Source of the DNA: Hypnocyclicus thermotrophus
Lineage (GTDB): Bacteria > Fusobacteriota > Fusobacteriia > Fusobacteriales > Fusobacteriaceae
Assembly: GCF_004365575.1 (NCBI RefSeq)
Contig: NZ_SOBG01000005.1
Span: forward strand, 134,193 to 198,192
Length of the DNA: 64,000 nucleotides
Direction: 5' to 3'
The position numbers were made by a program, and so were the translations under genes. The first letter of the stretch is position 1, and each line of letters begins with the position of its first letter. The notes beneath the pieces were generated by a model. The model saw only the letters and a program-made list of their open reading frames with translations. It searched no databases and was not told the DNA's origin. Positions 1 through 60,909 of this stretch are shown here, in pieces.

Positions 1-77
1 CATTGTTTTTATTAGGAAATTCAATATATTTTTATATATTATTAATAAACAAGATTTGATTTTATTAGTTATAAATA

Positions 78-97
78 TATTTTTGTTTATATACATA
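78..97 (+). repeat. Rep box (iteron) u1
   Basis: The sequence is TATTTTTGTTTATATACATA, identical to the box found perfectly (reverse complement) at 9206-9225 and 13985-14004. It is the left-most of three boxes before the rep gene. Binding by the Rep protein is inferred from proximity and recurrence. Confidence 0.75.
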
Positions 98-159
98 TAA
101 AATCTTTTAAAATCAACAATATAAAAACAATATATATTCTAAATAAATTATATATAATA

Positions 160-179
160 TATGTATATGAATAAAAATA
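160..179 (-). repeat. Rep box u2, inverted, 18/20
   Basis: Reads TATGTATATGAATAAAAATA on the + strand, which is the reverse complement of the box with two mismatches. It is inverted relative to its neighbours at 78-97 and 230-249. Confidence 0.6.
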
Positions 180-229
180 AAAAATATTACAATATTTTAT
201 TATTTTTGTTATAATAAAAAATAGAAAAT

Positions 230-249
230 TATTATTGAATATATACATA
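230..249 (+). repeat. Rep box u3, degenerate, 17/20
   Basis: The right part ATATACATA is intact and three mismatches fall in the left T-run/G part. It lies about 60 bp before the rep start, where a promoter would be expected, so occupancy could repress rep. That is inference. Confidence 0.5.
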
Positions 250-307
250 TATATTTTACTATAAATTAGGGGAAAAAGAAAATATTTTTTAGGAGGAATC
301 ATCTATT

Positions 308-1996
308 ATGATCTTAAAAGAAGAAAAAGAAATATTTGAATTAGATGAATATAATATTGATACATCTGGTGATTTAACAAAAGATGCAGTAAGAGAAATA
401 GATCATTTTGATATGGAAGAAAAATCATTACCAAATATAGAAGTAAAAGAAATGATTATAAAAGAAACAGGAAATTTTTTAAATTTAAAAGAAAATATAA
501 TTAATATACCTATTGAAATGATAGTTTTTCCTTTTTTTACGCCTCAAAAACAAAATAAACGTGTTAATTTTAAATATTCTTTTCAAGATTTAGGTGTAAC
601 AATGTACTGTACATTAGTTAGTAAAGATGAAAGTGATAAGGTTTTTCAACCATCTATTTTCGAAGAAAAAATATATAATTATCTTATTTCAATGTATGAA
701 CAAAAAAGAGAAATTAATGATACTGATGAATATATAGAATTTGAAATATCTGATTTTATTTGTGGTTTTTTAGGAAATAAAATGAATAGAGCATATTACT
801 CTAAAGTAGAACAATCTTTGAAAAATCTTAAAAATACAGAGTATCAATTTGTAATATCAAATCATAGTAAATTAGGAAAATATAAATTTGAAGATGAAGA
901 ATTTAAACTTTTAACTTATCAAAAATTAAAATTAGGAAAAAAAGTTTTTTATAGAGTAACACTTAATAAAAATATAAGAAAAAAAATAAAAGATAAAAGA
1001 TATATTAAATATAACTCTAAAAATCTTTTAGAAATTATTGATAAAGATGTAGTAGCTTCTAGAATATATAAATATATAAGTAAAATAAGATATAGTAAAA
1101 TAGAAGATGAAATACCACTAAAAACTTTGGCGGCGATAATTCCTTTAAAGACAGAACAAATTGTAAGTAGAATAAATAAAAAAGGTGAAAAAAGACGATA
1201 TAAATTAAGTAGAGTAAAACAGATAAAAAAAAGAATAGAGAAAGCTTTTAATGTATTAATAAAATTAGGTTATATAAAAAGTGTAAAAATATATGATAAA
1301 AAAGGTGAAATAGTAGTTAAATATCAATTTAATATAGAAAAAGATAATAAATGTCACGTATCTTCGTATATTGGTAATAAGATACCTAAACTAGAAAGAG
1401 TACCATATGAGAAAAATAATGAGATAGATATTAATAGATATAAGGTTGAAGAAGCTATTATTATTGATAATCAAGATATATTAAAAGCAAAAATAAAAAA
1501 AGCTAAACAAAATATGTATATTTCAAAATTATGGAATAAAAGAGTAGATAATAAAATAAAAAGATTAGTAAAACAAAAAGGAGAAGAGTTTGTAGTTAAA
1601 ATTTTAGATATTTTATATACTCAAGTAAATTATGAGATTAGAACTACTTTAGTTCAATATATTAATGGAATAGTAAATAATTTAGAAAAAAATAGTGATA
1701 TAGTAGAAGAAACTATTAAAGTAGAAGATAATTTAACTCTTTTTGAACAAGAAAAAAAAGAAAATAAAGGAAATAAAACAAAAGAGTTATCTGACGAAGA
1801 AATAAAAAAAATATTTAATTCTTTAGATGAATTAGAAAAAGCATCAATAGAAAAACAAGCATTAGAAATTTGTGAGAAAAGAGAAAAAGTATCAATAGAA
1901 TTTTTAATAAAATTAAAAAATCAAAATCAAAATATATATATGCTTACTATATTAAAATTTATAGGAGAAATACTGATAGAAAGAAATTTAGTATAA
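308..1996 (+). CDS. rep: Plasmid-type replication initiator protein (RepA/RPA-like)
   Basis: A 562-residue basic, lysine-rich protein. Residues about 65-260 resemble plasmid initiators of the replication initiator protein A (RPA) type: an N-terminal FPFF motif near 74-77, a strand-rich segment, then a helix-rich part with an EKIYNYLISMYEQKR-like stretch, followed by a second basic winged-helix-like region (about 255-345). The C-terminal 170 residues are charged and helical and may be a partner-binding region. The start follows AGGAGG (291-296) with an 11-base gap. It sits directly before yaaA-recF-dciA-gyrB-gyrA, where dnaA and dnaN are normally found, and is flanked on both sides by iteron-like boxes. 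I infer that it binds these boxes and opens this origin. A regulatory relic of an integrated plasmid is the main alternative. Family assignment is from sequence resemblance only. Confidence 0.72.
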   Translation: MILKEEKEIFELDEYNIDTSGDLTKDAVREIDHFDMEEKSLPNIEVKEMIIKETGNFLNLKENIINIPIEMIVFPFFTPQKQNKRVNFKYSFQDLGVTMYCTLVSKDESDKVFQPSIFEEKIYNYLISMYEQKREINDTDEYIEFEISDFICGFLGNKMNRAYYSKVEQSLKNLKNTEYQFVISNHSKLGKYKFEDEEFKLLTYQKLKLGKKVFYRVTLNKNIRKKIKDKRYIKYNSKNLLEIIDKDVVASRIYKYISKIRYSKIEDEIPLKTLAAIIPLKTEQIVSRINKKGEKRRYKLSRVKQIKKRIEKAFNVLIKLGYIKSVKIYDKKGEIVVKYQFNIEKDNKCHVSSYIGNKIPKLERVPYEKNNEIDINRYKVEEAIIIDNQDILKAKIKKAKQNMYISKLWNKRVDNKIKRLVKQKGEEFVVKILDILYTQVNYEIRTTLVQYINGIVNNLEKNSDIVEETIKVEDNLTLFEQEKKENKGNKTKELSDEEIKKIFNSLDELEKASIEKQALEICEKREKVSIEFLIKLKNQNQNIYMLTILKFIGEILIERNLV

Positions 1997-2025
1997 TATA
2001 AATATATAAACTTTGCTTCTAAAAT

Positions 2026-2056
2026 AAAAAAAGCCTTACATAGGCTTTTTTTATTT
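2026..2056 (+). terminator. Rho-independent terminator of rep
   Basis: A stem AAAAAGCCT / AGGCTTTTT with a short loop is followed by a T-run about 30 bp after the rep stop codon. The first downstream iteron begins in its T-tract. Confidence 0.85.
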
Positions 2057-2481
2057 TTAATCATATACATATTTAAACATAGTAAAATAAGTACTATTTT
2101 GCTATTGTGAAATGAAAAATATTGATTATAAAGGGAATAAAAAGATAAGAAATATTTTTGTGCATATACATAATAATAAAAACTAGTAAAATAAGTATAA
2201 ATTAAAAAAGAAAAATTTCTTAAATAAGTAAAATCAAAATTTATTTTATAAAAAATTATTTTTGACTGTATACATATTTAAACATAATAAAATAAGTACT
2301 ATTTTACTATTGTGAAATGAAAAATATTGATTATAAAGGGAATAAAAAGATAAGAAATATTTTTGTGTATATACATAATAATAAAAACTAGTAAAATAAG
2401 TATAAATTAAAAAAGAAAAATTTCTTAAATAAGTAAAATCAAAATTTATTTTATAAAAAAATATTTTTGTCTATATACATA
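2052..2481 (+). repeat. Iteron array in a 205-bp tandem duplication (putative oriC)
   Basis: Five copies of the 20-bp box lie in the same orientation at 2052-2071 (17/20), 2153-2172 (18/20), 2257-2276 (17/20), 2358-2377 (19/20) and 2462-2481 (19/20). Start-to-start distances are 101, 104, 101 and 104 bp. The array results from a direct duplication of about 205 bp (2054-2258 and 2259-2463) whose two copies differ at only a handful of positions, plus a terminal half unit. A companion 13-mer AGTAAAATAAGTA follows the first four boxes at 2081, 2185, 2286 (one change) and 2390. The spacing of roughly ten helical turns would put all boxes on about one face of the DNA. Origin function is inferred from the rep neighbour, the recF/gyrBA context and gene polarity. 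Confidence 0.75.
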
Positions 2482-2506
2482 TTGGTTGAAATAAAAAATA
2501 TTTTTC

Positions 2507-2545
2507 TATAATTGCTTAAAAAAAATATATATGATATTATATAAT
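2507..2545 (+). promoter_or_regulatory. Candidate promoter(s) of yaaA-recF-dciA-gyrB-gyrA
   Basis: Two TATAAT hexamers occur, at 2507-2512 (with TTGAAA at 2486-2491, a short 15-bp spacer) and at 2540-2545 (no good -35). Both lie just downstream of the last iteron, so the initiator could influence expression of the recF-gyrase operon. Which of them is used cannot be read from the sequence. Confidence 0.5.
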
Positions 2546-2571
2546 GTATTATTATGTAAAGGAGTCGATTA

Positions 2572-2784
2572 ATGGAAATAGTAAAAATAAATACAGAATT
2601 TATAAAATTAGATCAATTATTAAAGTGGATTAATGTAGTATCAAGTGGAGTTGAAGCTAAAATAGTTATTCAAGATGGCTTGGTAAAATTAAATGGAGAA
2701 ATAGAAACTAGAAGAGGAAAAAAAATATATAATGATGATATTATAGAAGTTAATGGTAGAAAATATAAAATAGTAAATAAATAA
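2572..2784 (+). CDS. yaaA: S4 domain protein YaaA
   Basis: A 70-residue single S4 RNA-binding domain with the usual pattern: an N-terminal helix with IKLDQLLKW, then GLVKLNGEIETRRGKKI and a final VNGRKYKI strand. In Bacillus the same small protein sits between dnaN and recF, and the position here is equivalent. It is thought to act on RNA or in ribosome assembly; its exact role is not evident. Start codon ATG follows AAAGGAG. It is separated from recF by only 13 bp, so it is probably cotranscribed with it. Confidence 0.85.
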   Translation: MEIVKINTEFIKLDQLLKWINVVSSGVEAKIVIQDGLVKLNGEIETRRGKKIYNDDIIEVNGRKYKIVNK

Positions 2785-2797
2785 TTGAGGTGTTACT

Positions 2798-3877
2798 TTG
2801 TTTATAAAAAATCTTTCATATTTTAATTTTAGAAATTTAATAGATGGAAATTTAGAATTTGACAAAAAATTTAATCTGTTTTTAGGAAAAAATGGGCAAG
2901 GTAAAACATCTGTTTTAGAATCTATATATTTTACTATTACTGGTCAAAGTTTTAGAACTAAAAATATAAAAGATATAATAAAATATGAAAAATTGAAATT
3001 AGCTACATATTTGGAATATGAAGACAAATTTTCAGAAAAAAATATCGCTATAAAAACAATCTCTAATAAAAAAGAGTATTTTTATAATAAAAAAAAAGTA
3101 ACTTATGATGAATATTTAGGAAGATTGAATGTAATATCTTTTATTCCAGAAGATATAAATCTTATTATTGGTTCACCTATGAATAGAAGAAATTTTTTTG
3201 ATTATGAAATATCTCAAGGAAATACAAGTTACTATATACATTTAAAAAATTATAATAAAATATTAAAAATAAGAAATACTTTTTTTAAGAATAAAGATTT
3301 TAGTGAAATATTTGAAATATATAATCAGAAATTTTTTGAAGAAATAGTCGAAATAGTTACAATGAGATATGAATACATAAAAAAAATTTCTATTTTATTA
3401 AATCTTAATTATAGAAAATTATTTGATAATAAGAGTGAATTAATTTTAACATATAAAAATTCTTTTGGTGATATAACAAAACTTAATAAAAATCAAATAA
3501 TGAAAAAATTATTAGAGTATTATAAAAAAATAAAAGATAAAGAAAAAAAATATGGTTATTCTTTGATAGGTCCTCAAAAAGATGATTTTTTATTTTTGTT
3601 AAATGGAAAAGAAGCAAAATCATTTTCTTCTCAGGGAGAAAAAAAATCAATTATATTTGCATTAAAAATATCAGAAATAGATATGCTTATTAAAGAAAAA
3701 AGTGAAACACCTATTTTTTTAATAGATGATATTTCATCTTATTTTGACTCTATACGAAAAGAAAGTATAATAAAATATTTTGAAAATAGAGAAATACAAC
3801 TCTTTTTAAGTTCTACTGATGATTTGGGAATTAATTCTAAAAAATTTAAAATATTTAAAGGTGATGTAAATGGATGA
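2798..3877 (+). CDS. recF: DNA replication and repair protein RecF
   Basis: A 359-residue SMC-like ATPase that helps load RecA at ssDNA gaps. Visible motifs: Walker A GKNGQGKT near residues 30-37, the ABC signature region SFSSQGEKKS near 275-285, and Walker B IFLIDDISSYFD near 307-318. Translation starts at TTG 2798, preceded by TGAGGTG; no in-frame ATG fits the conserved start FIKNLSYFNFRNL. It overlaps the next gene by 8 bp, indicating translational coupling. RecF is the classical neighbour of dnaA/dnaN and gyrB, which marks this as the ancestral origin-side cluster. Confidence 0.95.
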   Translation: MFIKNLSYFNFRNLIDGNLEFDKKFNLFLGKNGQGKTSVLESIYFTITGQSFRTKNIKDIIKYEKLKLATYLEYEDKFSEKNIAIKTISNKKEYFYNKKKVTYDEYLGRLNVISFIPEDINLIIGSPMNRRNFFDYEISQGNTSYYIHLKNYNKILKIRNTFFKNKDFSEIFEIYNQKFFEEIVEIVTMRYEYIKKISILLNLNYRKLFDNKSELILTYKNSFGDITKLNKNQIMKKLLEYYKKIKDKEKKYGYSLIGPQKDDFLFLLNGKEAKSFSSQGEKKSIIFALKISEIDMLIKEKSETPIFLIDDISSYFDSIRKESIIKYFENREIQLFLSSTDDLGINSKKFKIFKGDVNG

Positions 3878-4703
3878 AATAAGAATTAATCCAGTAAATG
3901 AGATAGTAAAATTAGGAATAAAACAAAGTAGAATGTTAAAAGAAAGTATGATAAGAGCTTATTATAATAAAATAGTAGAACCATATTTTTTTGAAAATTC
4001 TATGATAATAAAATTAGATAATGATATATTGATTATAGGAGTAAAAAATTCTATATGGTTGCAAGAATTTACTTTGAAAAAAAATATAATCTTATATAAA
4101 ATAAATAAAATTTTTGAAAATAACTATATAAAAAATATTAGATTTGAAATAAAAGAAAATATAAATCCAGAAAAAATATATGAGGAAAATTTTGAAAAAT
4201 TTGAACCAGAAAAAATAAATTTAAAAAAAGAAGAGATAGAAAAGATAGAAAAAAAAATAGAAGAATATGATGAAGTGATAAAAGAAAAAATAAAAAATAT
4301 GATGATATTATCTAAAAAAAAAGAAATCTATTTAAAAAATCATAATTATAAAAAATGTAAAAATTGTGGTATATATTTTTATAGTGAAAGAGATATATGT
4401 ATAAATTGTTTTAATCAAAACAAACATAAAGAAAGAAAAAAATTATATAATATAATAAAAAATATTCCATTTATCAAGTATGAGGATTTGACAAATACAC
4501 ATATAACAAAAGAACAATTTTTAGATATTAGAGCAAAAATAAAAGATGAAGTAAGAAAAAAAATGATGGATGGAGCAAATAATAATAATATAAAAGTTTA
4601 TAAAAAATATGCTAGAATTTATTTTATGATTGAAACACAAAATTCTAATGAAAAAGAAATAGAAAATTTAGTAAATAATTATTTAAAACGTCTAATATAC
4701 TAA
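3870..4703 (+). CDS. DciA-like (DUF721) protein with C-terminal zinc ribbon
   Basis: A 277-residue protein. The first about 95 residues match the DUF721/DciA pattern: a helix with [15 protein letters not shown], a central IWLQEF, then KNIRFEI. DciA is the ancestral loader or activator of the replicative helicase DnaB. A lysine/glutamate-rich helical linker follows (about 100-160). Near residues 165-185 there is a CKNCG...CINC motif, which looks like a zinc ribbon not present in typical DciA. The last about 80 residues are basic and helical. It overlaps recF by 8 bp and lies just ahead of gyrB. With a plasmid-type initiator nearby, a helicase-loading role at this origin is attractive but inferred. 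Confidence 0.7.
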
Positions 4704-4719
4704 ATATTTGGAGGGGAAA

Positions 4720-6621
4720 ATGAGTTATAAAGCAGAAAATATTAAAGTCCTAGAAGGATTAGAAGCTGTTAGAAAAAGACCTGGAATGTATATAGGATCT
4801 ACATCAATTAGAGGACTTCATCATTTAGTTTACGAAATAGTAGATAATAGTGTTGATGAAGCTTTAGCAGGTTATTGTAATAATATTCAAGTAAATATTT
4901 TACCAGATAATATAATAGAAATAAGAGATAATGGTAGAGGAATCCCAGTTGATTTACATCCAAAACATAATAAATCTGCACTTGAAATTATTATGACGGT
5001 TCTTCATGCGGGAGGAAAATTTGAAAAAAGTGGATATAAAGTATCTGGAGGACTTCATGGAGTTGGAGCTTCTGTAGTAAATGCTTTATCAGAATGGTGT
5101 GAAGTAGAATCAAGAAGAGATGGTGGAGTATTTTATCAAAAATATTTTAGAGGAAAACCAGTAGAACCAGTAAAAAAAATAGGGGACTGTTATGAAGAAA
5201 CAGGTACAACAGTTAGGTTTAAAGCTGATTATGAGATATTTGAAACATTAGAATATGAGTTTGATACTTTAAAATCTAGATTAAAAGAACTTGCCTATTT
5301 AAATAAAGGATTATCTATAACTATTACAGATAGCAGAAAAGATAAAGAAAAATCAGAATATTTAAAATTTGAAGGTGGAATAGTTGATTTTTTAAGTGAA
5401 ATAACTAAAGAAGAGAAAAAAATAATAGAAAATATTATATATATAGAAGGAACTAAAGATGATGTTGTAGTAGAGGTATCATTTGTATATACAGAAAAAC
5501 AAAGAGAAAATGCTTATTCATTTGTAAATAATATAAATACTCATGAAGGAGGGACACATCTTAGTGGATTTAAAACAGCACTTACAAGAGTAATCAATGA
5601 TGTAGCTAGAGAACAAGGATACATTAAAGAAAAAGATGGAAAATTTCAAGGTACAGATGTAAGAGAAGGTATTACATGTATAGTAAGTGTTAAAGTACCT
5701 GAACCGCAATTTGAAGGACAAACAAAAACAAAATTAGGAAATTCAGAAGTTACAGGCGTGGTATCATCAATAGTTTTTGATTATCTGAAAATGTATTTAG
5801 ATGACCATCCAAATGATACTAAAAATATAGTTGAAAGAATATTACTTTCTAAAAAAGCTAGAGAAGCAGCTAAAAAGGCAAGAGAGTTAGTACTTAGAAA
5901 AAATGCACTTGAAGTTGGCTCACTTCCTGGAAAATTAGCTGATTGTTCATCAAAAAAATCAGAAGAATGTGAAGTATATATAGTAGAGGGAGATAGTGCG
6001 GGAGGAAGTGCAAAACAAGGAAGAGATAGAAGATTCCAAGCAATATTACCTTTAAGAGGAAAAATATTAAATGTAGAAAAAGCCGGTATTCATAAAATAC
6101 TTGAAAATAATGAAATAAGAGCATTAATAACAGCTATAGGAACAAATATCGGTGATGATTTTGATATAGAAAAATTAAGATACAGTAAAATAATAATAAT
6201 GACAGATGCCGATGTAGATGGGGCACATATAAGAACCCTTTTACTTACTTTCTTTTATAGATATTTACCAGAGCTTATAGAAAATGGAAATATATTTATA
6301 GCGCAACCACCATTATATAAAATATCAAAAGGAAAATCAATTGTTTATGCTTATTCAGATAAACAATTAAATGATATTTTAAAAACATTTGATGAGGGAA
6401 CAAGATATAATTTACAAAGATATAAAGGACTTGGAGAAATGAATCCAGAACAATTATGGGAAACAACAATGGATCCAGATACAAGAACATTATTAAAAGT
6501 AACTCTTGAAAGTGCAACAGAAGCAGATAGATTATTCTCTGTGTTAATGGGAGATAAAGTAGAACCTAGAAGAGAGTTTATTGAAGAACACGCAGAATAT
6601 GTAAGAAACTTAGATATTTAA
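4720..6621 (+). CDS. gyrB: DNA gyrase subunit B
   Basis: A 633-residue ATPase subunit of DNA gyrase, which introduces negative supercoils. GHKL ATPase motifs are clear ([34 protein letters not shown]), then a transducer domain, a TOPRIM domain with [16 protein letters not shown] and [14 protein letters not shown], and the C-terminal [14 protein letters not shown] 4720 is preferred over the in-frame TTG 4708 because GGAGGGG (4710-4716) is the ribosome binding site and [15 protein letters not shown] is the usual N-terminus. It directly precedes gyrA and follows the DciA-like gene. Confidence 0.97.
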
Positions 6622-6645: not shown

Positions 6646-9096
6646 ATGTCAATTGAAAAAGAGATATATATAGAGGATGAGATTAAGGCATCATACCTTG
6701 ATTATTCAATGAGTGTAATTGTAAGTAGAGCACTTCCAGATGTAAGAGATGGATTAAAACCTGTACATAGAAGAATACTTTTTGCAATGAATGAAATGGG
6801 AATGACTAATGATAAGCCTTATAAAAAAAGTGCTAGAATCGTTGGGGAAGTACTAGGTAAGTATCATCCACATGGAGATACTGCAGTATATAATACTATG
6901 GTGAGAATGGCACAAGAGTTTAACTATAGATATATGCTTGTACAAGGACATGGAAACTTTGGTTCTATAGATGGAGATAGTGCAGCTGCTATGAGATATA
7001 CAGAAGCAAGAATGGCAAAAATTACTTCTGAGTTATTAGTAGATATTGATAAAGATACTATAGATTATAGAAAAAACTTTGATGATAGCTTAGATGAACC
7101 TGTAGTATTACCAGCAAAACTTCCAAATTTACTTTTAAATGGTGCAGATGGAATAGCAGTAGGAATGGCTACTAAAATACCACCACATAATTTAGGTGAG
7201 TTAGTAGATGCTATTATTGCATTAATAGATAATAAAGATATAACAATTGAAGAATTATCTACTCATATAAAAGGACCAGATTTTCCAACTGGTGGAATTA
7301 TATTTGGAAAAAAAGGTATAAAAGAAGCATATGAAACAGGAAGAGGAAGAATATTAGTTTCTGGAAAAGTAGATGTAGAAGAGAAAAAAAATGGTAGAGT
7401 TAGTTTGATAATAACAGAACTTCCTTATCAAGTAAATAAAGCAAGACTTATAGAAAAAATAGCTAACTTAGTAAAAGAAAAAAGATTACAAGGAATATCA
7501 GATCTTAGAGATGAATCAGATAGAGATGGAATAAGAGTTGTAATAGAACTTAAAAAAGGAGAAGAACCAGAATTAATATTAAATAATTTATATAAATATA
7601 CAGAATTACAAACAACTTTTGGGATAATTATGCTTGCACTTGTAAATAATATACCTAGAGTATTAAACTTAAAAGAAGTTTTAGAATATTATTTACAACA
7701 TAGATTTGAAGTAGTAACAAGAAGAACACGATTTGAATTAAATAAAGCAGAAAAAAGAGCACATATTTTAGAAGGATTTAGAATAGCATTAGATAATATT
7801 GATAAAATTATAGAGTTAATTAGAGCTTCTAATGATGGAAATACAGCAAAAGAAAAGCTAGTAGAATCATATAGCATAAGTGAAATACAAGCAAAAGCTA
7901 TATTGGATATGAAATTACAAAGATTAACAGGATTAGAAAGAGGAAAAATAGAAGCTGAATATAATGAACTTATGAAATTAATCATTGAGTTAAAAGAAAT
8001 ATTAAATAATGATAATAGAATATATGAAATAATAAAAGCAGAGCTTGTAGAATTAAAAGAAAAATTTAATGATGAAAGACGTACAGAGATAAAAGCTTCA
8101 AGAAGAGATATATCTGTAGAAGATATAATAAAAGATGAAAAAATGATAGTAACACTTACTAATAAAGGTTATGTAAAAAGAATGGCTTTAGATAAATATA
8201 AAGCACAAAAAAGAGGCGGAAAAGGAATATCTGCTCAAGTAACTATAGAAGATGATTTTGTAGAAAGTATGTATGTAGCTTCTACATTGGATACATTGAT
8301 GATATTTACTGATTTTGGAAAAGCATATAGTTTAAAAGTATATGAAATTCCTGAAACATCTAGACAAGCAAAAGGAAAACTTATAACTAATCTTATAAAT
8401 TTAGATAAAAATGAAAAAGTAAGAGCAATTATAAAAGTTCGAGATTTTTCAGATGAAACAGAAGTATTCTTCTTAACATCACAAGGAAAAGCAAAGAAAA
8501 CAAATTTAGATTTATTTAAAAATATGAATAGATCTGGAATTATAGCTATTAAACTTAATGAAATGGATAATTTAATATATGTAGGACTTATAAATAATGA
8601 GAAAGAAGAGATATTTGTAGCAACTAAAAAAGGTTATGCAATAAGATTTGGTCAAGAACTTATAAGATCTATGGGAAGAAATGCAGCAGGAGTTAAAGCT
8701 ATAACTCTTCGTACAAATGATGAAGTCGTATCTGGAGTAATAGTAAGAAATGAAGAGGAGAAAATACTCACTATCACAGAAAGAGGATATGGAAAAAGAA
8801 CTGATTTAGAAGAGTATCCATTACAATCAAGAGGTGGAAAAGGAGTAATAAACATAAAATCAAATATAAAAACAGGAGATGTAGTAGAAATAAAATCTGT
8901 AAATGATGATGAAGAACTTATGGCTATCACATCAAATGGTATAGTAATACGTACACCTGTTGAAAAAATATCTAATATAGGTAGAGCTACTCAAGGAGTA
9001 AAAGTTATGAGAGTAGCAGAAAATGAAAAAGTGGTATCTATTGTAAAAGTGAAAAAAAATTTAGAAGATGAGATAGATATTGAGGAAGAAGAATAA
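6646..9096 (+). CDS. gyrA: DNA gyrase subunit A
   Basis: An 816-residue subunit A of DNA gyrase. The breakage-reunion domain has the catalytic tyrosine in [11 protein letters not shown] (Tyr118). The C-terminal beta-pinwheel carries the GyrA box QKRGGKG near residue 525, which separates gyrase from ParC, and the tail is acidic. The quinolone-resistance-determining segment reads HGDTAVYN, with Thr79 and Asn83 at the positions of E. coli Ser83 and Asp87. It lies 24 bp after gyrB with an SD GAGGAG, so the two are cotranscribed, and it ends at a strong terminator. Confidence 0.97.
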
Positions 9097-9120
9097 ACCG
9101 GTTTATCCGGTTTATTTTTG
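9095..9120 (+). terminator. Terminator after gyrA
   Basis: A perfect stem AAACCGG / CCGGTTT (9095-9101 with 9107-9113) overlaps the gyrA stop codon and is followed by TATTTTTG. Its T-tract merges into a Rep box at 9117. Confidence 0.85.
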
Positions 9121-9136
9121 TATATAAACAAAAATA
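9117..9136 (-). repeat. Rep box d1, 19/20, after gyrA
   Basis: Reads TTTGTATATAAACAAAAATA on the + strand, the reverse complement of the origin box with one mismatch. Together with the upstream TTTTT it forms a near dyad (TTTTTGT...AACAAAAA). Confidence 0.7.
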
Positions 9137-9205
9137 AAATTTTGAAAATAATTGAAAACAGATAAAAAATAGCTTATACTAAAAAATGTATTAATATTAT
9201 AATTA

Positions 9206-9225
9206 TATGTATATAAACAAAAATA
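9206..9225 (-). repeat. Rep box d2, perfect, before mfd
   Basis: TATGTATATAAACAAAAATA is the exact reverse complement of the box at 78-97. It lies 89 bp after box d1 in the 238-bp gyrA-mfd spacer and has no coding role. Confidence 0.75.
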
Positions 9226-9334
9226 TTATTTTTTAGATTTTTATCTAAGAATGTAAAAAAAGAGTCTTTTTTGGCTTAATTTAAATTAATTATTTTAATT
9301 TATATAATGTTTTATAAAATTAAATGGAGGAAAA

Positions 9335-13984: not shown

Positions 13985-14004
13985 TATGTATATAAACAAA
14001 AATA
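13985..14004 (-). repeat. Rep box d3, perfect, between mazG and rqcP
   Basis: TATGTATATAAACAAAAATA is the exact reverse complement of the origin box. It sits in the 68-bp mazG-rqcP gap, 26 bp before the rqcP ribosome binding site. Confidence 0.75.
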
Positions 14005-14042
14005 ATTTTATAAAAAATTATTTTAATAGAAAGGATTTTTTT

Positions 14043-31669: not shown

Positions 31670-32941
31670 TTGAAAGCTATTGTTTATGGAGCAGGAAAAA
31701 GTGGTTTAGGAGCAAAAAAACTTTTAGAAAAACAAGGTTATGAAGTAATTTTAGTAGATGATAAAAATGGAATATCATCACAAAAAGCTATAAAATATTT
31801 AGATGAAATAGATATTTTTATAAAAAGTCCAGGAATTCCTTATAATGATTTTGTAAAATTAGCAATAGATAAAAATATTAATTTAATAGATGAAATAGAA
31901 TTAGCTTATATGTATATGAACAAAAATACGAAAATTATAGCAATTACAGGAACGAATGGAAAAACTACTGTAACAAGCAAAATAAAAGAGTTATTAGAGT
32001 ATAATAGTTATAAAGTAAAATATGCCGGAAATATAGGTATTTCTTTTTCCGAAATAGTTTTAGAGGGTAAAGATTTAGATTATATTGTGTTAGAACTTAG
32101 CTCATACCAGCTTGAAAATATTAAAACATTTAAACCATATATATCGATGATAATAAATTTAACACCTGATCACATGAATAGATATAGTAGTTTAGATGAA
32201 TATTACAATGCAAAATTTAATATTTATAAAAATTGTAATAATACTGATTATTTTATTTTAAATATTGATGATAATGAAATAATGACTAGATTTAATAAAA
32301 ATATAAACTTAAAAAAAATTTCTTTAGAAAATGAAGCTGATATCTATTATAAAAATAATTATATATTTATAAATAAAGAAATGTATATAAACAAAAATAA
32401 TCTTTCTTTAAAAGGTATACATAATATACAAAATATTTTATTTATAATATCTGTATCTGAAATTTTAGGTCTTGATAGAAAAAAATTAAAAGTTTTTTTA
32501 GAAACAACAAATACTCTAGAACATAGAATGGAAGAATTTTTTAAAAAAGAAGATACTTTGTTTATTAATGATTCTAAAGGAACAAATATAGATTCTACAA
32601 TAAAAGCAATAGAAGCTTTTGAAAAAGACTTAATTTTAATAACAGGAGGAAAAGATAAAAAAGTAGATCTATATCCACTGTGTAAAATAATAAAAAATAA
32701 AGTAAAAAAGGTATATCTTATAGGTGAGACAGCAGATATTTTAGAGGAGATATTATTAGAGCTAGAATATAAAAAAGAAAATATTAAAAACTTAAAAACT
32801 ATTGAGAAAGTAGTAGATAATCTTAAATTAGAATCAGAAATAGTACTTTTTTCGCCGGCACATTCTAGTTTTGATCAATTTAAAAATTTTGAAGAAAGAG
32901 GAAAAATTTTTAAAGAATTAATTTTACAAAAGTTTAATTAG
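31670..32941 (+). CDS. murD: UDP-N-acetylmuramoylalanine--D-glutamate ligase
   Basis: A 423-residue Mur ligase adding D-Glu to UDP-MurNAc-L-Ala. N-terminal KAIVYGAGKSGLGAKKLL, ATP loop ITGTNGKTTVTSK (about 92-104), NLTPDHMNRY and FINDSKGTNIDST are diagnostic. I choose TTG 31670, which has AGGTGAT at a proper distance and gives the usual N-terminus; an in-frame GTG at 31661 touches the mraY stop. Two copies of the origin-associated 20-bp box fall inside the gene (31909-31928 and 32380-32399), encoding MYMNKN and MYINKN in non-conserved stretches. An ftsW gene, often next, is absent. Confidence 0.94.
   Translation: MKAIVYGAGKSGLGAKKLLEKQGYEVILVDDKNGISSQKAIKYLDEIDIFIKSPGIPYNDFVKLAIDKNINLIDEIELAYMYMNKNTKIIAITGTNGKTTVTSKIKELLEYNSYKVKYAGNIGISFSEIVLEGKDLDYIVLELSSYQLENIKTFKPYISMIINLTPDHMNRYSSLDEYYNAKFNIYKNCNNTDYFILNIDDNEIMTRFNKNINLKKISLENEADIYYKNNYIFINKEMYINKNNLSLKGIHNIQNILFIISVSEILGLDRKKLKVFLETTNTLEHRMEEFFKKEDTLFINDSKGTNIDSTIKAIEAFEKDLILITGGKDKKVDLYPLCKIIKNKVKKVYLIGETADILEEILLELEYKKENIKNLKTIEKVVDNLKLESEIVLFSPAHSSFDQFKNFEERGKIFKELILQKFN
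31909..31928 (-). repeat. Rep box d4, 19/20, inside murD
   Basis: Reads TATGTATATGAACAAAAATA on the + strand, the reverse complement of the origin box with one mismatch. It codes for part of murD ahead of the ATP loop. Confidence 0.55.
32380..32399 (-). repeat. Rep box d5, 19/20, inside murD
   Basis: Reads AATGTATATAAACAAAAATA on the + strand, differing only at the first base. It shares a 21-base exact match with the intergenic box at 13986. Confidence 0.6.
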
Positions 32942-55111: not shown

Positions 55112-56308
55112 ATGCATAAAAATAAGTTTCCTATATTTGAAAATAATAGAGAATTAGTATATTTAGATAGTGCAGCTACTACTCAAAAACCAAAAGAGGT
55201 ATTAGATGCAATGTATAACTATAATATTTATAATAATGCAAGTCCAAATAGAGGAAGTTATAAACTTAGTTTAGAAGCTACAAATTTATATAAAGAAAGT
55301 AAAAAAAATGTTGCGACATTTATCGGAGCAGAAAGTGAAGAGATAATTTATACTAAATCAGCAACAGAATCGTTAAATTTAATATCGTATGTTTTAGAGA
55401 AAGAATTAAAAAAAAATGATGAAATTTTAGTAGGAATTAGTTCTCATCATTCTAATTTAGTTCCTTGGCAAGAATTAGCTAAAAGAAAAAACATAGTTCT
55501 TAAATATATTTATTTAGATAAAAATGGAGAGTTTGATTTAAGTGATTTAAAAAATAAACTTTCAAATAATACAAGATTAGTTACATTTTCTTATGCTGTA
55601 AATACTACTGGAGTTGTACATGATGTAAAAAAAATAATAAACTTAATAAAAACATTTAATACTAATATAAAAATAATAGTAGATGGTGCACAGATAGTAC
55701 TTCATAAAAATATAGATGTAAAAAAATTAGATATAGACTTTTTTGTGTTTTCAGCGCATAAAATGTTTGGACCTATTGGAATTGGAGTACTTTATATAAA
55801 AAAAGAATTAATTGAAAAATTACCTCCATTTTTATATGGTGGAGATATGATAGAGTTTGTAGAAGAAACAAAGTCTATATATAAAAATAATTATGAAAAA
55901 TATGAAGGTGGAACTCAAAGTGTAGAACTTGCAGTAGGACTTTCAGCAGCAATAGAATTTATTAATAAAATAGGTATTAAAAAAATAGAAACATATGAAA
56001 AAGAATTACATGATTATTTACTAAGTAAATTAAAGGAGCTTGATTTTATAGAGATATATTTTGAAAATCAAAAAAATAAAACTCCTGTTATAGCTTTTAA
56101 TGTAAAAAATGTACACTCTCATGATGTGAGTCAAATATTGGATATGAATAATATAGCAATAAGGACCGGTCATCATTGTACACAGCCACTTATGAAATAT
56201 CTAAATATTCCTTCTTGTTGTAGAGTAAGCTTATCTATTTACAATACTGAAAATGATATAAATAAACTTATAAAATCACTATATAAAGTAAAAGAAATTT
56301 TTTATTAA
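55112..56308 (+). CDS. sufS: Cysteine desulfurase SufS
   Basis: A 398-residue PLP enzyme that takes sulfur from cysteine. N-terminal LDSAATTQKPKEVLDAM, SHHSNLVPWQ, the PLP lysine in FVFSAHKMFGPIGIG, GGTQSVELAVGLSAA, and the C-terminal TGHHCTQPLMKYLNIPSCCRVS with the catalytic Cys just before RVS. ATG 55112 with GAGGTG six bases upstream is preferred to the in-frame GTG at 55103, which overlaps that SD. Confidence 0.94.
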   Translation: MHKNKFPIFENNRELVYLDSAATTQKPKEVLDAMYNYNIYNNASPNRGSYKLSLEATNLYKESKKNVATFIGAESEEIIYTKSATESLNLISYVLEKELKKNDEILVGISSHHSNLVPWQELAKRKNIVLKYIYLDKNGEFDLSDLKNKLSNNTRLVTFSYAVNTTGVVHDVKKIINLIKTFNTNIKIIVDGAQIVLHKNIDVKKLDIDFFVFSAHKMFGPIGIGVLYIKKELIEKLPPFLYGGDMIEFVEETKSIYKNNYEKYEGGTQSVELAVGLSAAIEFINKIGIKKIETYEKELHDYLLSKLKELDFIEIYFENQKNKTPVIAFNVKNVHSHDVSQILDMNNIAIRTGHHCTQPLMKYLNIPSCCRVSLSIYNTENDINKLIKSLYKVKEIFY

Positions 56309-56452
56309 AAAATATAAATTTATAATACAAAGAGATAAGATAATCGTAATAATACATAAAAAAGTTCTAAATTTTAATAGTTTTAAGTAATTTTATGTAA
56401 GAAAGTATTTTAAATTTTGCAATAAAAAACAAAGAATCTGGAGGTGAAATTA

Positions 56453-56881
56453 TTGGACTATAATAAAATATATACATCTTTAATTATGGAACATAATAAA
56501 AGTGGACATAATAAGAGGGAAATAAAAAATGCAGATTATATTGAAAGAGGTCATAATCCAAATTGTGGAGATGACATTACTGTACAATTAAAAATAAAAG
56601 ATGACAAAATCGTAGATGGAGCTTTTATAGGAATAGGGTGTGCAATTTCTCAAGCTTCAGCATCAATACTTTTTGATATAATAAATGGCAAAAATATAAA
56701 TGAAGCAAAACATATAGTAGAATCTTATCTTAAAATGATAAAAAAAGAAGAAATATCAGAAGAAGACAAAGAAAAATTAGAAGATGCTGTAATCTTAGAA
56801 AATATATCAAATATGCCAGCTAGAGTAAAATGTGCTACGCTTGCATGGAATGGAGTAAAAATAATTTTTAATAAAATATAA
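56453..56881 (+). CDS. sufU: Zinc-dependent sulfurtransferase SufU
   Basis: A 142-residue protein that accepts sulfur from SufS. Three cysteines and one aspartate that bind zinc are visible: NCGDD (about 36-40), IGCAISQASASIL and VKCATLAWNG. TTG 56453 is chosen because GGAGGTG (56440-56446) ends six bases ahead; the in-frame GTG 56444 lies within it. There are 144 bp between sufS and this gene, an AT-rich gap without a clear promoter. The SufS-SufU pairing is that of Gram-positives, not the SufE type. Confidence 0.92.
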   Translation: MDYNKIYTSLIMEHNKSGHNKREIKNADYIERGHNPNCGDDITVQLKIKDDKIVDGAFIGIGCAISQASASILFDIINGKNINEAKHIVESYLKMIKKEEISEEDKEKLEDAVILENISNMPARVKCATLAWNGVKIIFNKI

Positions 56882-56918
56882 AATCCTCTTAAAGTAATCT
56901 TTAAGAGGATTTTTTTTA
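56881..56918. terminator. Bidirectional terminator between sufU and amylase
   Basis: A perfect 13-bp stem AATCCTCTTAAAG / CTTTAAGAGGATT with loop TAAT and T-run between convergent genes. Confidence 0.9.
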
Positions 56919-58739
56919 TTATTGTTCTATCCAAACTGATACACTACCACCGTTTACTTTGAATTCAGCCCATCCATCATTATTTGAATAAATAACATCG
57001 CTTCTATTTCCAAGATAATCTATAAATTTAGCATTTGCTTTACCTACATACATCCATTTACTACCACCACTAGCATCAGTTAAGATTGTAGCCATTGCTT
57101 TTGGATGATTAGCATCACCAAGTCTTGTCCAACCAATAATATCAGGATTATCTAAATAATCTCTTTGTTCTCCATAAGCATATAATTTTCTTGCTTCAAC
57201 AAGTTTTTTTATAGTATTGTATTGAGACTTAATATTTTGTGCACCATACATATCACCATAGAAAACACATGGATAACCATCTTGTCTAAGTAAAATCATA
57301 GCATAAGCTAGAGGTTTAAACCAATCTTTTACTGGTGATTCAAGAGCTTGACCAGGTTGTGTATCATGATTTTCTACAATAGTTACAGCTTTTAATGGAT
57401 TAGATTGAACTAAAGTACCATTAAATATATTTTTCATATCATAATATCCATTACCATTTGACGCATTATGAAAATTCATGTGTAATGGTGCATCAAATAA
57501 AGACATTTTACCATTAGATTTTGTTATATAGTTATTTAATTTATTTATATCATAACTCCAATATTCTCCAACTGTAAATAATTCTTTTCCAGTTGAACTT
57601 CTTAAATAATCTAGCCAATCATTAAAAAATGTAAATTTAATATGTTTTACAGCATCAAGTCTAAATCCATCTACACCTGTAAAATCTAAATACCATTTTC
57701 CCCAATCTTTTAATTCTTGAACAACTTCAGGATGATCCATATCAAGATCAGCACCCATTAAGTAATCATAATTATTATTCTCAGTATCCACTTCCCAATC
57801 CCAAGATTTTCCTGTACCATTAAATCTAAATATAGCTTTTTGTTTAGAATTATCATCCCAATCTACACCATCAAAATGATACCATTTCCAATTAAATGTA
57901 GAGTATTTTCCATTTCTTCCAGGAAAATGAAAATCTGTCCAAGCACTTATTGTTTTGGTTTCATAGGTAACATTTCTATTATTCCAATCTACTCTAGTAG
58001 CTGATACATTTTCTTTTCCATCTGCTCCCATTCTATGATTAAACACAACATCACCATATATTTGTATACCATTTTGATGAGCTACATTTATGGCATTAAG
58101 ATATTCATCTTTTGTACCATATTTAGTTCTAATAGTACCTTTTTGATTAAACTCTCCAAGGTCATACATATCATATACTCCATATCCAACATCTGCACTT
58201 CCAGCTTGTCCTTTATATGCAGGTGGAAGCCAAAGAGCTGTAATTCCCATATTTGATAAGGTAGAAGATTCAGAAGCTACTTTATTCCATAAACTTCCAT
58301 CATTAGGTAAATACCATTCAAAATATTGCATCATAGTCCCGTTAATAGAAGAAGAACTATTATTTATTTCTGTAACTTTAATTTCATGAGTAGAATCATA
58401 AAAAGTGATTTTATATGTTTTGTTAGGAGAAACATAATAATCTTGAGAAGGATAGTTTTCTGACCAATCCCCGTATCTATCAATTTTAAATCTAGGACCA
58501 CCAGAAGAGTCACCATTATTAAACGTAACGGTAATTTCCCAAGTATTAGAAGCTACTTTAGTCATTGGACTAGTATTCCAAGAATTAGGTGTACCTCTAA
58601 AATAAGCATTATTCCATTCACTAACAAGTGAAGCAGATATACTACTATTATTTAAATTAGATGTTAAATTAGATGTTTTATCACAGCCAATAATAGTAAG
58701 AAAAACCAATAAGAATAAAAAATTTAAAAATTTTTTCAT
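56919..58739 (-). CDS. Secreted alpha-amylase lipoprotein (GH13, subfamily 5-like)
   Basis: A 606-residue endo-alpha-1,4-glucanase. A lipoprotein signal (FLLVFLTIIGC, Cys about 19) is followed by a Ser/Asn linker and a beta domain (about 40-125; AYFRGTPNSWN...TWEITVTF...RFKIDRYGDWSENYP) that looks like a starch-binding module. The catalytic domain starts at GTMMQYFEWYLPNDG, as in the Bacillus liquefying amylases. Catalytic residues lie in GFRLDAVKHIKF (Asp nucleophile), FTVGEYW (Glu acid) and VENHDTQPGQ (Asp). It is one of only two minus-strand genes and may be separately acquired. On its strand SD AGGAGG precedes the start, with a hairpin in the leader. Confidence 0.92.
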   Translation of the reverse strand: MKKFLNFLFLLVFLTIIGCDKTSNLTSNLNNSSISASLVSEWNNAYFRGTPNSWNTSPMTKVASNTWEITVTFNNGDSSGGPRFKIDRYGDWSENYPSQDYYVSPNKTYKITFYDSTHEIKVTEINNSSSSINGTMMQYFEWYLPNDGSLWNKVASESSTLSNMGITALWLPPAYKGQAGSADVGYGVYDMYDLGEFNQKGTIRTKYGTKDEYLNAINVAHQNGIQIYGDVVFNHRMGADGKENVSATRVDWNNRNVTYETKTISAWTDFHFPGRNGKYSTFNWKWYHFDGVDWDDNSKQKAIFRFNGTGKSWDWEVDTENNNYDYLMGADLDMDHPEVVQELKDWGKWYLDFTGVDGFRLDAVKHIKFTFFNDWLDYLRSSTGKELFTVGEYWSYDINKLNNYITKSNGKMSLFDAPLHMNFHNASNGNGYYDMKNIFNGTLVQSNPLKAVTIVENHDTQPGQALESPVKDWFKPLAYAMILLRQDGYPCVFYGDMYGAQNIKSQYNTIKKLVEARKLYAYGEQRDYLDNPDIIGWTRLGDANHPKAMATILTDASGGSKWMYVGKANAKFIDYLGNRSDVIYSNNDGWAEFKVNGGSVSVWIEQ

Positions 58740-58770
58740 AATAAAAAATACCTCCTATAATTTATTTTAC

Positions 58771-58798
58771 AATCTATACATTTAATAATGTATAGATT
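58771..58798 (-). promoter_or_regulatory. Perfect inverted repeat in the amylase leader
   Basis: Arms AATCTATACATT / AATGTATAGATT of 12 bp with loop TAAT lie about 30-60 bases before the amylase start. It could be an operator or an mRNA-stabilising hairpin. No T-run follows on the amylase strand, so it is not a terminator. Confidence 0.6.
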
Positions 58799-58807
58799 CA
58801 AAAACAA

Positions 58808-58890
58808 TTGAACTGTTTCCAGTATATTTTTACCATTTTTGTATAAAAAAATCAATACTTTATTAAGTTAAAAAAAGAACGTTTCCAAAA
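58808..58890 (-). promoter_or_regulatory. LacI/CcpA-like half sites near amylase promoter
   Basis: GGAAACAGTTC (minus strand, at about 58811-58821) and GGAAACGTTC (minus strand, at about 58879-58888) resemble operators of LacI-family sugar regulators or cre sites. This is weak, pattern-based evidence only. Confidence 0.3.
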
Positions 58891-58910
58891 AAACTACATT
58901 TTCCAAAAAC

Positions 58911-58953
58911 TGACTAGCTAGTCATTGACTTGATGGTCAGTTTGTGATATGAT
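58911..58953 (+). promoter_or_regulatory. TetR-type tandem operator and promoter of efflux operon
   Basis: TGACTAGCTAGTCA (58911-58924) is a perfect palindrome; TGACTTGATGGTCA (58926-58939) has the same TGAC-N6-GTCA form, 15 bp further on. The promoter TTGACT (58925-58930), 17-bp spacer, TATGAT (58948-58953) overlaps the second site, as expected for autorepression by the adjacent TetR protein. Confidence 0.82.
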
Positions 58954-59006
58954 TAAAATATTAAAATTAAATCAAAGTATAATCAAGGAGGGAAATCAGG
59001 AGGAAA

Positions 59007-59624
59007 ATGGATGAATTAAATACTAAAAATAAATTAATAAAAAGTGCTATGGAACTTTTTTTAGAAAAAGGTTATGAAGGAATTAAAGTTGAAGATATTA
59101 CTAAAGAAGCTGGAGTTGCGAAAGGAACTTTTTATACTTATTTTAAGGCAAAAGATGATATATTTATTGATGTTATATCCAAAATGATGGAAATTTATAT
59201 AGATATATTAAAAAACTTAAAGTTTGAAGAAGGTGAATTAAAGAAAAACATCAAAAAAATAGTGAGCCTTATGTATAAAACCTCTTATAAACACAAAGCA
59301 ATGTATAAAGTAATATCTCTTATATTCAAGAATCCGCACCTTTTGTCAAAACTTTTTGAAAGTGAATTTCCTTTTAAAAAAATGAGTGAGGATATATATA
59401 TAAAACTTTTAGAAAGTAGTAAAAATGAGGTTAGAGATGAAGTAATAGAAAATAAAAAAATATTTATTACGGTACTAGGTAAAATATTAGATGCATATAT
59501 GTTTGAATTATTTGAAATAAAAGAGTTTAAAAGTAGTGGGAAAATAAAAAAAATAACAGAAGAAGAATTGGAGTATCATATTAAAATAATTTCAAATACT
59601 ATTTATTTAGCTATAAAAAAATAA
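59007..59624 (+). CDS. TetR-family transcriptional repressor
   Basis: A 205-residue regulator. The N-terminal helix-turn-helix (about 8-55) reads NKLIKSAMELFLEKGYEGIKVEDITKEAGVAKGTFYTYF, a classic TetR/AcrR domain; the C-terminal helical ligand domain is unremarkable. It is the first gene of an operon with TolC, adaptor and RND genes and almost certainly represses it through the palindromes just upstream. SD AGGAGG precedes ATG 59007. The ligand is unknown. Confidence 0.92.
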   Translation: MDELNTKNKLIKSAMELFLEKGYEGIKVEDITKEAGVAKGTFYTYFKAKDDIFIDVISKMMEIYIDILKNLKFEEGELKKNIKKIVSLMYKTSYKHKAMYKVISLIFKNPHLLSKLFESEFPFKKMSEDIYIKLLESSKNEVRDEVIENKKIFITVLGKILDAYMFELFEIKEFKSSGKIKKITEEELEYHIKIISNTIYLAIKK

Positions 59625-59637
59625 AGGAGGAAGAATA

Positions 59638-60909
59638 TTGAGACGAAAAGTAGTGATTTTAGTTTTTTTATTAACAACTCTTACATCATTTGCAAAAATA
59701 GAAATAGATTTAAATACTGCAACTGAAAAAGTGATAGAGAAAAGTGAAACTATAAAAAAATATGAGTTAGATTTAGAAAATTCAAAATTACAAAAAAAAG
59801 AAGCTTTTAAATCAGGATTACCAAGTGTAGGATATAGTGGAACTATTGCTAAAACAGAGGATAAGAACACTTTTACAGGTAGTGATGAATACCATCAATA
59901 TAAATTAACATTATCACAACCTATTTTTAATGGTTTTAGAATAATAACAGCTATTCAAAATGGTGATAAATATGTACAGCTTAGTGAATATGCATTAGAA
60001 AAAGAAAAAAATGATGAAAAATTAAAAATTACTAAAAATTATATAGAAGCATTAAAATTAAAAAAGCAAATAGAGATATTAGAAAATTCTAAAAAAGAAT
60101 TAGAGAAAAATTTTGAAAAAATAAAAAGAATGTATGAATTAGGGTTTGTAATGAAAAGTGATGTATTGGATATAAATTATGGATTAATAGAATTGGAAAG
60201 TACAATTTTACAAATGAAAAATGCATTTGAAATATCAAAACTAAGTATAAAAAATGATTTAGGCATAGCGAGTGATGAAAAACTTATTTTAAAAGATGTT
60301 AAAAATATAGATAAAAAAATTAATGTAATAAATATAGATTTAGGAAAAGATTTAATTAAAATTAAAAATGAAAGTTTAACTGCAAAAATTTTAGATATAA
60401 ATTTAGATTTAGCAAAAGCTTCGGAAAAATTTGAAAAAGCAAATTTTCTTCCTATGGTAAATGGGCAATTTTCATATGGAAATCAAACTACATATGGTAG
60501 TATAAAAGACGCTTTTAAATCAGAGAATTTAGATTGGTCAGTAGGAATAAGTATTTCAGGAACATTATATAATTTTGGTAAAAATATAGATGCATATCAA
60601 AGAAGTAAAAATAACACAAAAAAAGTTGAATATGATAGAAAATTTACAAAAGATAACTTAGAAATAGCTTTAAAATCTGCATATTTAGATATAGTGAGAT
60701 TACAAAAAGTATTAGAAGCAAAAGAAAAAGCACTTGAAAGTGCTACTGAAAATTATAAATACCAAGAAAAAAGGCTAAATAATAATTTGATTGATTCTAT
60801 TACATTTTTAAAAGCTGAAAATAGCTTGAGAGAAGCTAATATAGGGTATAATATAACTAAATTAGATTTATATTATGCTATTGAAAATTATAAAAATTTA
60901 TTAAAATAA
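59638..60909 (+). CDS. TolC-family outer-membrane efflux protein
   Basis: A 423-residue protein with signal peptide VVILVFLLTTLTSFA and two repeats of the TolC fold: long coiled helices (KYELDLENSKLQKKEAFKSGLPSVGYSG; later LDINLDLAKASEKFEKANFLPMVNGQFSYG). It forms the outer-membrane duct of a tripartite pump. TTG 59638 follows AAAGGAGGA. It lies between the TetR gene (13 bp) and the adaptor gene (18 bp). Confidence 0.92.
   Translation: MRRKVVILVFLLTTLTSFAKIEIDLNTATEKVIEKSETIKKYELDLENSKLQKKEAFKSGLPSVGYSGTIAKTEDKNTFTGSDEYHQYKLTLSQPIFNGFRIITAIQNGDKYVQLSEYALEKEKNDEKLKITKNYIEALKLKKQIEILENSKKELEKNFEKIKRMYELGFVMKSDVLDINYGLIELESTILQMKNAFEISKLSIKNDLGIASDEKLILKDVKNIDKKINVINIDLGKDLIKIKNESLTAKILDINLDLAKASEKFEKANFLPMVNGQFSYGNQTTYGSIKDAFKSENLDWSVGISISGTLYNFGKNIDAYQRSKNNTKKVEYDRKFTKDNLEIALKSAYLDIVRLQKVLEAKEKALESATENYKYQEKRLNNNLIDSITFLKAENSLREANIGYNITKLDLYYAIENYKNLLK

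Follow-up and report, generated by a model that had tools for sequence, protein, structure and literature searches.

Which protein starts replication of a bacterial chromosome that has no DnaA? DnaA is regarded as the near-universal initiator of main chromosomes, with known exceptions limited to symbionts and some cyanobacteria. The question is raised by a locus of Hypnocyclicus thermotrophus (Fusobacteriaceae) where a gene for a Rep-like protein, rep, lies in the slot of dnaA and has 21-bp repeats (boxes) on both sides. We analyzed a 64,000-nt stretch of contig NZ_SOBG01000005.1 (G000:C5:134193-198192; hereafter the window, whose coordinates are used below) in the context of the 2.22-Mb genome, which is estimated to be 99.98% complete. 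The interpretation that we favor, with a probability of roughly 0.86, is that the locus is a main-chromosome origin working without DnaA and that an initiator of the RctB/plasmid-Rep type took over once, in the ancestor of Fusobacteriaceae. A first-pass annotation of the window had described initiator-binding-type repeats beside a Rep-like gene, in part multiplied through a tandem duplication of 205 bp. This description is supported; the larger point, the absence of DnaA, was not part of it.

Chromosomal setting of the rep gene

Left of rep, on the opposite strand, lie rpmH, rnpA, yidC, jag, mnmE, and mnmG (named by sequence recognition and synteny). The genes of the window that define the locus, those after rep being located to the right of the downstream boxes, are as follows:

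308..1996, plus strand: rep, candidate RctB-like initiator of 562 amino acids in the dnaA slot
2572..2784, plus strand: yaaA (S4 domain, TIGR02988 YaaA_near_RecF)
2798..3877, plus strand: recF (family model match)
3870..4703, plus strand: dciA (DnaB helicase operator, PF05258)
4708..6621, plus strand: gyrB (family model match)
6646..9096, plus strand: gyrA (position, translation, and synteny)

The rpmH side and the yaaA-recF-dciA-gyrB-gyrA side together make up the classic neighborhood of a bacterial oriC. The cumulative GC skew also has its minimum at rep: The skew is −0.24 in the 3 kb left of the window and +0.36 in the first 3 kb of the window, and its sign is nearly uniform for tens of kilobases on both sides. 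Sampling around the circle showed a sign change at rep in three relatives with complete single-contig genomes as well. Both features by which a chromosomal origin is recognized, the skew sign change and the oriC gene neighborhood, are thus present, and the sharp flip at rep in four genomes points to one fixed bidirectional origin. A plasmid or an integrated element as the setting was ruled out by the oriC gene order on both flanks together with the skew flip. The comparison with plasmid iterons drawn in the first-pass annotation is therefore misplaced, as the locus is the oriC of a 2.2-Mb chromosome and not a plasmid.

Distribution of DnaA and Rep

In the H. thermotrophus genome, there is no match to Bac_DnaA (PF00308, the AAA+ domain) or to DnaA_C (PF08299, the DNA binding domain). 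Among 98 Fusobacteriota genomes searched, DnaA_C was found in none of the 61 Fusobacteriaceae and in 36 of the 37 others, the single exception being a genome that is 82% complete. The full DnaA model TIGR00362 gave full-length matches outside the family only; inside Fusobacteriaceae, it matched weak AAA+ fragments. A DnaA hidden elsewhere in the genome was ruled out by these three family models. DnaA boxes (TTATNCACA) are absent from 29.5 kb of rpmH-rep intergenic regions of the family, while one or two are present in each of three outgroup regions upstream of dnaA.

With a profile of relatives, Rep was found in 60 of the 61 Fusobacteriaceae genomes, including loci of Fusobacterium gastrosuis, F. 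mortiferum, Cetobacterium, Propionigenium maris, Ilyobacter, and Psychrilyobacter. It adjoins a divergent rpmH in every family locus reaching that far; in loci with conserved gene order, yaaA-recF-(dciA)-gyrB-gyrA come next. In the outgroups G037 and G038, dnaA is located exactly in the slot that Rep occupies in the family. Outside the family, Rep was found only in G038, on a second replicon, and the chromosome of G038 has dnaA in the usual slot. Judged from gene content, Fusobacteriaceae appear to have lost DnaA.

Box array between rpmH and rep

In every relative with a contig long enough to cover it, the interval between rpmH and rep holds the main box array. In H. thermotrophus, this array is mostly outside the window, with boxes at −416, −321, −227, −132, and +77 relative to window position 1, 94 to 95 bp apart. 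Its repeat unit, of ~189 bp, is present in three or more partial copies. A 95-N assembly gap (G000:C5:134098-134192) interrupts this array and ends just before window position 1. The part inside the window consists of the following:

1..105: incomplete additional copy of the ~189-bp unit, recognized by sequence identity with the copy at about −220..−100; the rest is left of the window, behind the gap
77..97, plus strand: iteron box of the upstream array, exact consensus ATATTTTTGTTTATATACATA
160..180, minus strand: iteron-like box upstream of rep
229..249, plus strand: iteron-like box directly upstream of rep

The location of the last two boxes beside rep suggests that they may serve autoregulation.

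Boxes were searched for in 31 family loci using a 20-bit matrix (consensus about WTATTATTGTNNATATACATA). The rpmH-rep regions contain 174 boxes on the plus strand versus 11 on the minus strand, with 0.25 expected in shuffles. At least two boxes are present between rpmH and rep in 30 of the 31 loci, the remaining one being cut by a contig end. Several same-orientation repeats beside rep, which characterize an iteron replicon, were likewise found in 30/31 loci. Their spacing, mostly 91 to 118 bp, is not the ~2 helical turns of iteron plasmids but ~10 turns. Adjacent spacings cluster at means of 93.3, 104.2, and 116.3 bp, corresponding to 8.9, 9.9, and 11.1 turns of 10.5 bp, and none in the family loci falls at 96 to 100 or 108 to 113 bp. 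The spacing of about 10 helical turns proposed in the first-pass annotation is thus borne out and extends to Fusobacteriaceae loci family-wide. The box core is near-palindromic, and the DNA at the array is AT-rich (87.5% AT).

Properties of the Rep protein

Searches of Pfam, NCBIfam, and PHROGs assigned the 562–amino acid Rep to no family at a significant level. Neither of the DnaA-family domains (PF00308 and PF08299) was matched, no Walker A motif is present, and the window Rep has no Rep_3 (PF01051) match of the Rep3_N or Rep3_C kind. The curated cutoffs of RPA (PF10134) and TrfA (PF07042) were not reached by Reps of the family; the sub-threshold matches of family members scored 19.8 to 21.8 bits for RPA (cutoff of 27) and 16.3 bits for TrfA (cutoff of 22). 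A single-protein search of Protein Data Bank (PDB) sequences yielded no match, and a profile search of PDB sequences, RctB included, yielded no RctB match up to E = 1. The weak matches of the profile in PDB sequences, to eukaryotic proteins only, were taken as chance.

The only PDB structures matching the AlphaFold model of Rep at E ≤ 0.001 are those of RctB domains 2-3 (Foldseek, 5tbf/5ubf, E of 3.5e-6 to 1.9e-5, probability of 1.00). The model, with a predicted local distance difference test (pLDDT) score of 71, has the RctB-type winged-helix fold of these domains. A search of viral structures produced weak matches only, the best being a phage replication initiator (E of 1.9e-3).

The C-terminal part of Rep (amino acids ~389 to 562, window 1460-1993) is modeled as an all-helical module with a pLDDT of 87; taken alone, it has no structural relative in the PDB. 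Closely similar modules are common to chromosomal Reps and Rep_3-type plasmid initiators with unrelated N termini, as seen in the plasmid-initiator loci L081 (G036:C4), L083 (G033:C1), and L082 (G036:C5). This sharing suggests that the module may be a swappable dock for the host replisome, perhaps for DnaB or DciA. DnaB is present in the H. thermotrophus genome, and dciA lies inside the origin cluster.

Rep paralogs on other replicons

Maximum-likelihood analysis groups the chromosomal Reps in a single clade (support of 100/99), which midpoint rooting places among the Reps of other replicons. In G038, genes for ParA and for a ParB-like protein come after the Rep relative and make up a rep-parA-parB cassette with it. 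The single chromosomal clade among Reps of other replicons and the parA/parB context in G038 favor one takeover event, with a plasmid or second replicon as the donor, a direction of transfer that we infer under an arbitrary root.

H. thermotrophus itself encodes a second Rep (L072, G000:C1:122203-123750) that is 49% identical, is located between chemotaxis genes, and has its own, different box array with the repeat ATGAAAAGTNTATACAT. Gene strands and skew around this paralog, looked at as a possible second chromosome, are mixed. On a 124-kb replicon of another genome (G025:C3; L075 / L201), a Rep paralog is preceded by a 105-bp tandem array with a spacing of 61+44 bp and the box ATTCTCCGCAAG..GTGATGGTTTTA. 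Since paralogous Reps on other replicons adjoin different repeats, initiator and box appear to change together.

These data bear on an alternative in which Rep is a DNA binding regulator (an autoregulator or chromosome organizer), the boxes are regulatory, and the chromosome has no dedicated initiator, its replication being recombination-dependent or starting from many origins. Free-living cyanobacteria without DnaA that initiate from multiple origins do exist (PMC7198777), isolated boxes are found between other genes (see below), and both the binding of Rep to the boxes and the function of Rep are matters that we infer. However, the sharp skew flip in four genomes indicates one fixed bidirectional origin, the closest fold is that of a replication initiator, and the paralogs occur on second replicons with repeats of their own, one of them in a rep-parA-parB cassette. 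We therefore consider a purely regulatory Rep very unlikely.

The 205-bp duplication downstream of rep

A second group of boxes follows rep. In the first-pass annotation, it was presented as five phased iterons generated by the 205-bp tandem duplication. The elements of this region are as follows:

2021..2057, plus strand: perfect 16-nt inverted repeat ending in a T-run; overlaps the box at 2051
2051..2255: 205-bp tandem copy 1 (sequence comparison)
2256..2460: 205-bp tandem copy 2, seven differences from copy 1
2051..2071, plus strand: iteron box 1 of the downstream array (this and the next four by box search)
2152..2172, plus strand: iteron box 2
2256..2276, plus strand: iteron box 3, hybrid-like
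2357..2377, plus strand: iteron box 4
2461..2481, plus strand: iteron box 5

The inverted repeat is likely the terminator of rep. The direct repeat is real, with 97% identity between copies, and all five boxes are confirmed on the plus strand, at starts 1 bp lower than first given and at distances of 101, 104, 101, and 104 bp. The boxes had been said to stay conserved, which does not hold for the duplication: In a base-by-base comparison, five of the seven copy differences fall in boxes, which make up 42 of the 205 bp (Fisher P = 0.004); the boxes have thus changed more than the spacer. Nor can the duplication be the source of the array, since the conserved array is the one upstream of rep and the downstream duplication is missing in most relatives. 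The boxes at 2051-2481 are a lineage-specific extra cluster. They represent a minority of the whole box set, to which the array upstream of rep also belongs. The boxes are not a product of chance: With up to two mismatches allowed, the 64-kb window contains 15 box matches versus 0.33 expected in shuffles, and no shuffle reached 15.

Box 3 (2256) looks like a hybrid, its 5′ part resembling box 5 and its 3′ part and flank resembling box 1. This suggests unequal recombination between boxes, and the concentration of the copy differences in boxes likewise gives the impression that recombination between boxes produced the duplication. As for use, the cluster would probably act in initiator titration or handcuffing or provide extra assembly sites, unless it is a neutral tandem duplication without a role, which would be compatible with the origin proposed here. 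A neutral duplication agrees with the lack of an array at that place in most relatives and with the concentration of copy differences in boxes, and a hybrid middle box is what unequal exchange between boxes 1 and 5 would be expected to leave. On the other hand, all five boxes retain their orientation and the 101/104-bp spacing and still score as boxes, and one to four boxes directly follow rep in several relatives. We regard neutrality as a tentative possibility.

Isolated boxes around the origin

Genome-wide, there are 35 box matches (6 in the reversed control). Ten of them belong to the origin region and another 17 to the rest of the 209-kb origin contig, which leaves 8 for the remaining 2.0 Mb. 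On the origin contig, the density of isolated boxes is ~20 times that in the rest of the genome, and these boxes are polar, mostly on the plus strand left of the origin and mostly on the minus strand right of it (P = 0.03 in H. thermotrophus and 0.002 in the family). Those to the right are as follows:

9117..9137, minus strand: isolated box right of the origin
9206..9226, minus strand: isolated box, exact consensus
13985..14005, minus strand: isolated box
31909..31929, minus strand: isolated box
32380..32400, minus strand: isolated box

The isolated boxes on the left are located within G000:C5:79909-130128. A plus-strand box near the mnmG-mnmE junction recurs in many genera.

In Vibrio, a distant site cluster titrates RctB (PMC6090056), and the isolated origin-proximal boxes resemble such sites. 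By analogy with the RctB sites near ori2 (PMC6090056), they may possibly form a distributed titration system. Their density and left/right polarity, together with the near-palindromic box core, could also be explained if boxes were parS-like segregation sites or nucleoid-organizing sites of another protein, adjoining rep only through proximity to the origin. We judge this very improbable, since the dense directional array ends at rep in every relative reaching that far and since paralogous Reps adjoin box types of their own.

A model for initiation without DnaA

In the model that we propose, Rep would bind the 21-bp boxes that lie about 9 to 11 turns apart, on one DNA face, between rpmH and rep. 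Bound Rep would loop or wrap the AT-rich DNA and then open it, and DnaB would be delivered by Rep, assisted by DciA, whose gene belongs to the same cluster. The initiator would derive from the Rep of a plasmid or second replicon; the swap would have occurred once, in the ancestor of the family, and DnaA would have been lost. We think it highly probable that the whole family, with its free-living and its host-associated members, permanently swapped DnaA-oriC for a plasmid-type initiator resembling RctB and an array of helically phased iterons of long pitch, located exactly at the place of dnaA, a natural and fixed case of integrative suppression.

Several observations weigh against this interpretation. 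In G001, a 93%-complete draft genome of the same genus, neither Rep nor DnaA was found, probably due to an assembly gap at the repeat-rich origin. The AlphaFold model of Rep is of moderate quality (pLDDT of 71), and the superposition of RctB on it is loose (root mean square deviation of 7.5). The tree is rooted at its midpoint, and several outgroup branches are long. A periodogram of box spacings does not single out 10.5 bp, a 12-bp period being slightly higher in the 8 to 14 scan. The 104-bp mode dominates this test, so the case for helical phasing is made mainly by where the clusters lie and by the empty valleys between them. Last, the relatives behind the family counts are not independent samples.

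Comparison with known systems

With the chromosome 2 origin (ori2) of Vibrio cholerae and its initiator RctB, the locus shares an initiator modeled with the same domain fold (Foldseek E of 3.5e-6) and a repeat array beside the initiator gene. The two differ in that RctB runs a second replicon beside a DnaA-run main chromosome, whereas Rep would run the main chromosome with no DnaA. In addition, box spacing is ~93 to 116 bp here, while ori2 has closely packed 11/12-mer iterons, and the profile search revealed no significant sequence similarity to RctB. Iteron plasmids with Rep_3/RepE/TrfA/RPA initiators likewise have a Rep gene beside directional repeats, and some true Rep_3 plasmid initiators of this family share the C-terminal module, but the window protein has no Pfam Rep_3 match and is located on the main chromosome. 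A canonical DnaA oriC has the same genomic slot, the same neighbors (rpmH; yaaA-recF-dciA-gyrB-gyrA), and the same skew behavior; here, however, there is no DnaA, there are no DnaA boxes, and the candidate initiator is unrelated and lacks a Walker A motif.

DnaA-less cyanobacteria and symbionts also maintain a chromosome without dnaA. In the accessible part of the work on them (PMC7198777), free-living bacteria without DnaA are reported as unknown until the cyanobacteria, and the studied free-living cyanobacteria have multiple origins with no replacement initiator named; here, one fixed origin and a candidate replacement are seen. The origin of Fusobacterium nucleatum was tentatively placed upstream of an open reading frame followed by recF and gyrB (Karpathy 2007, PMC1924603), very likely the same locus. 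The accessible part of that paper describes the reading frame as having "low identity to DnaA," in contrast to the lack of any DnaA match in the family protein here, and it reports no DnaA absence, box array, or RctB fold for this origin. A 2016 survey lists Fusobacteria among the phyla with dciA in the dnaA-dnaN-recF-gyrB-gyrA operon or beside recF/gyrB (PMC5109545). Our search of the open literature, with subscription papers outside its scope, revealed no paper describing the loss of DnaA, or a chromosomal initiator resembling RctB, in Fusobacteriaceae. Iterons with a Rep are a known type of mechanism; what is new is that they would serve the main chromosome in a family lacking DnaA.

The whole family, Fusobacterium species included, thus appears to have retained its chromosome and the neighboring genes but to have exchanged initiator and origin. 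It becomes possible to test how once-per-cycle control is achieved by a plasmid initiator whose normal tuning is for copy number, what regulates such an initiator when DnaA is absent, and what keeps main and secondary replicons apart when their Reps are related. The locus can also serve as a starting point for vectors built on the origin, in a group for which genetic tools are scarce.

Other features of the window

No Rfam match (riboswitch or structured RNA) was found in window 1-2600. Promoter-like sites in the box region number 43 versus 31.7 expected, a difference that carries no information on the boxes. At 56001-60000, the local GC skew is about zero or negative, which suggests an inverted or inserted segment.
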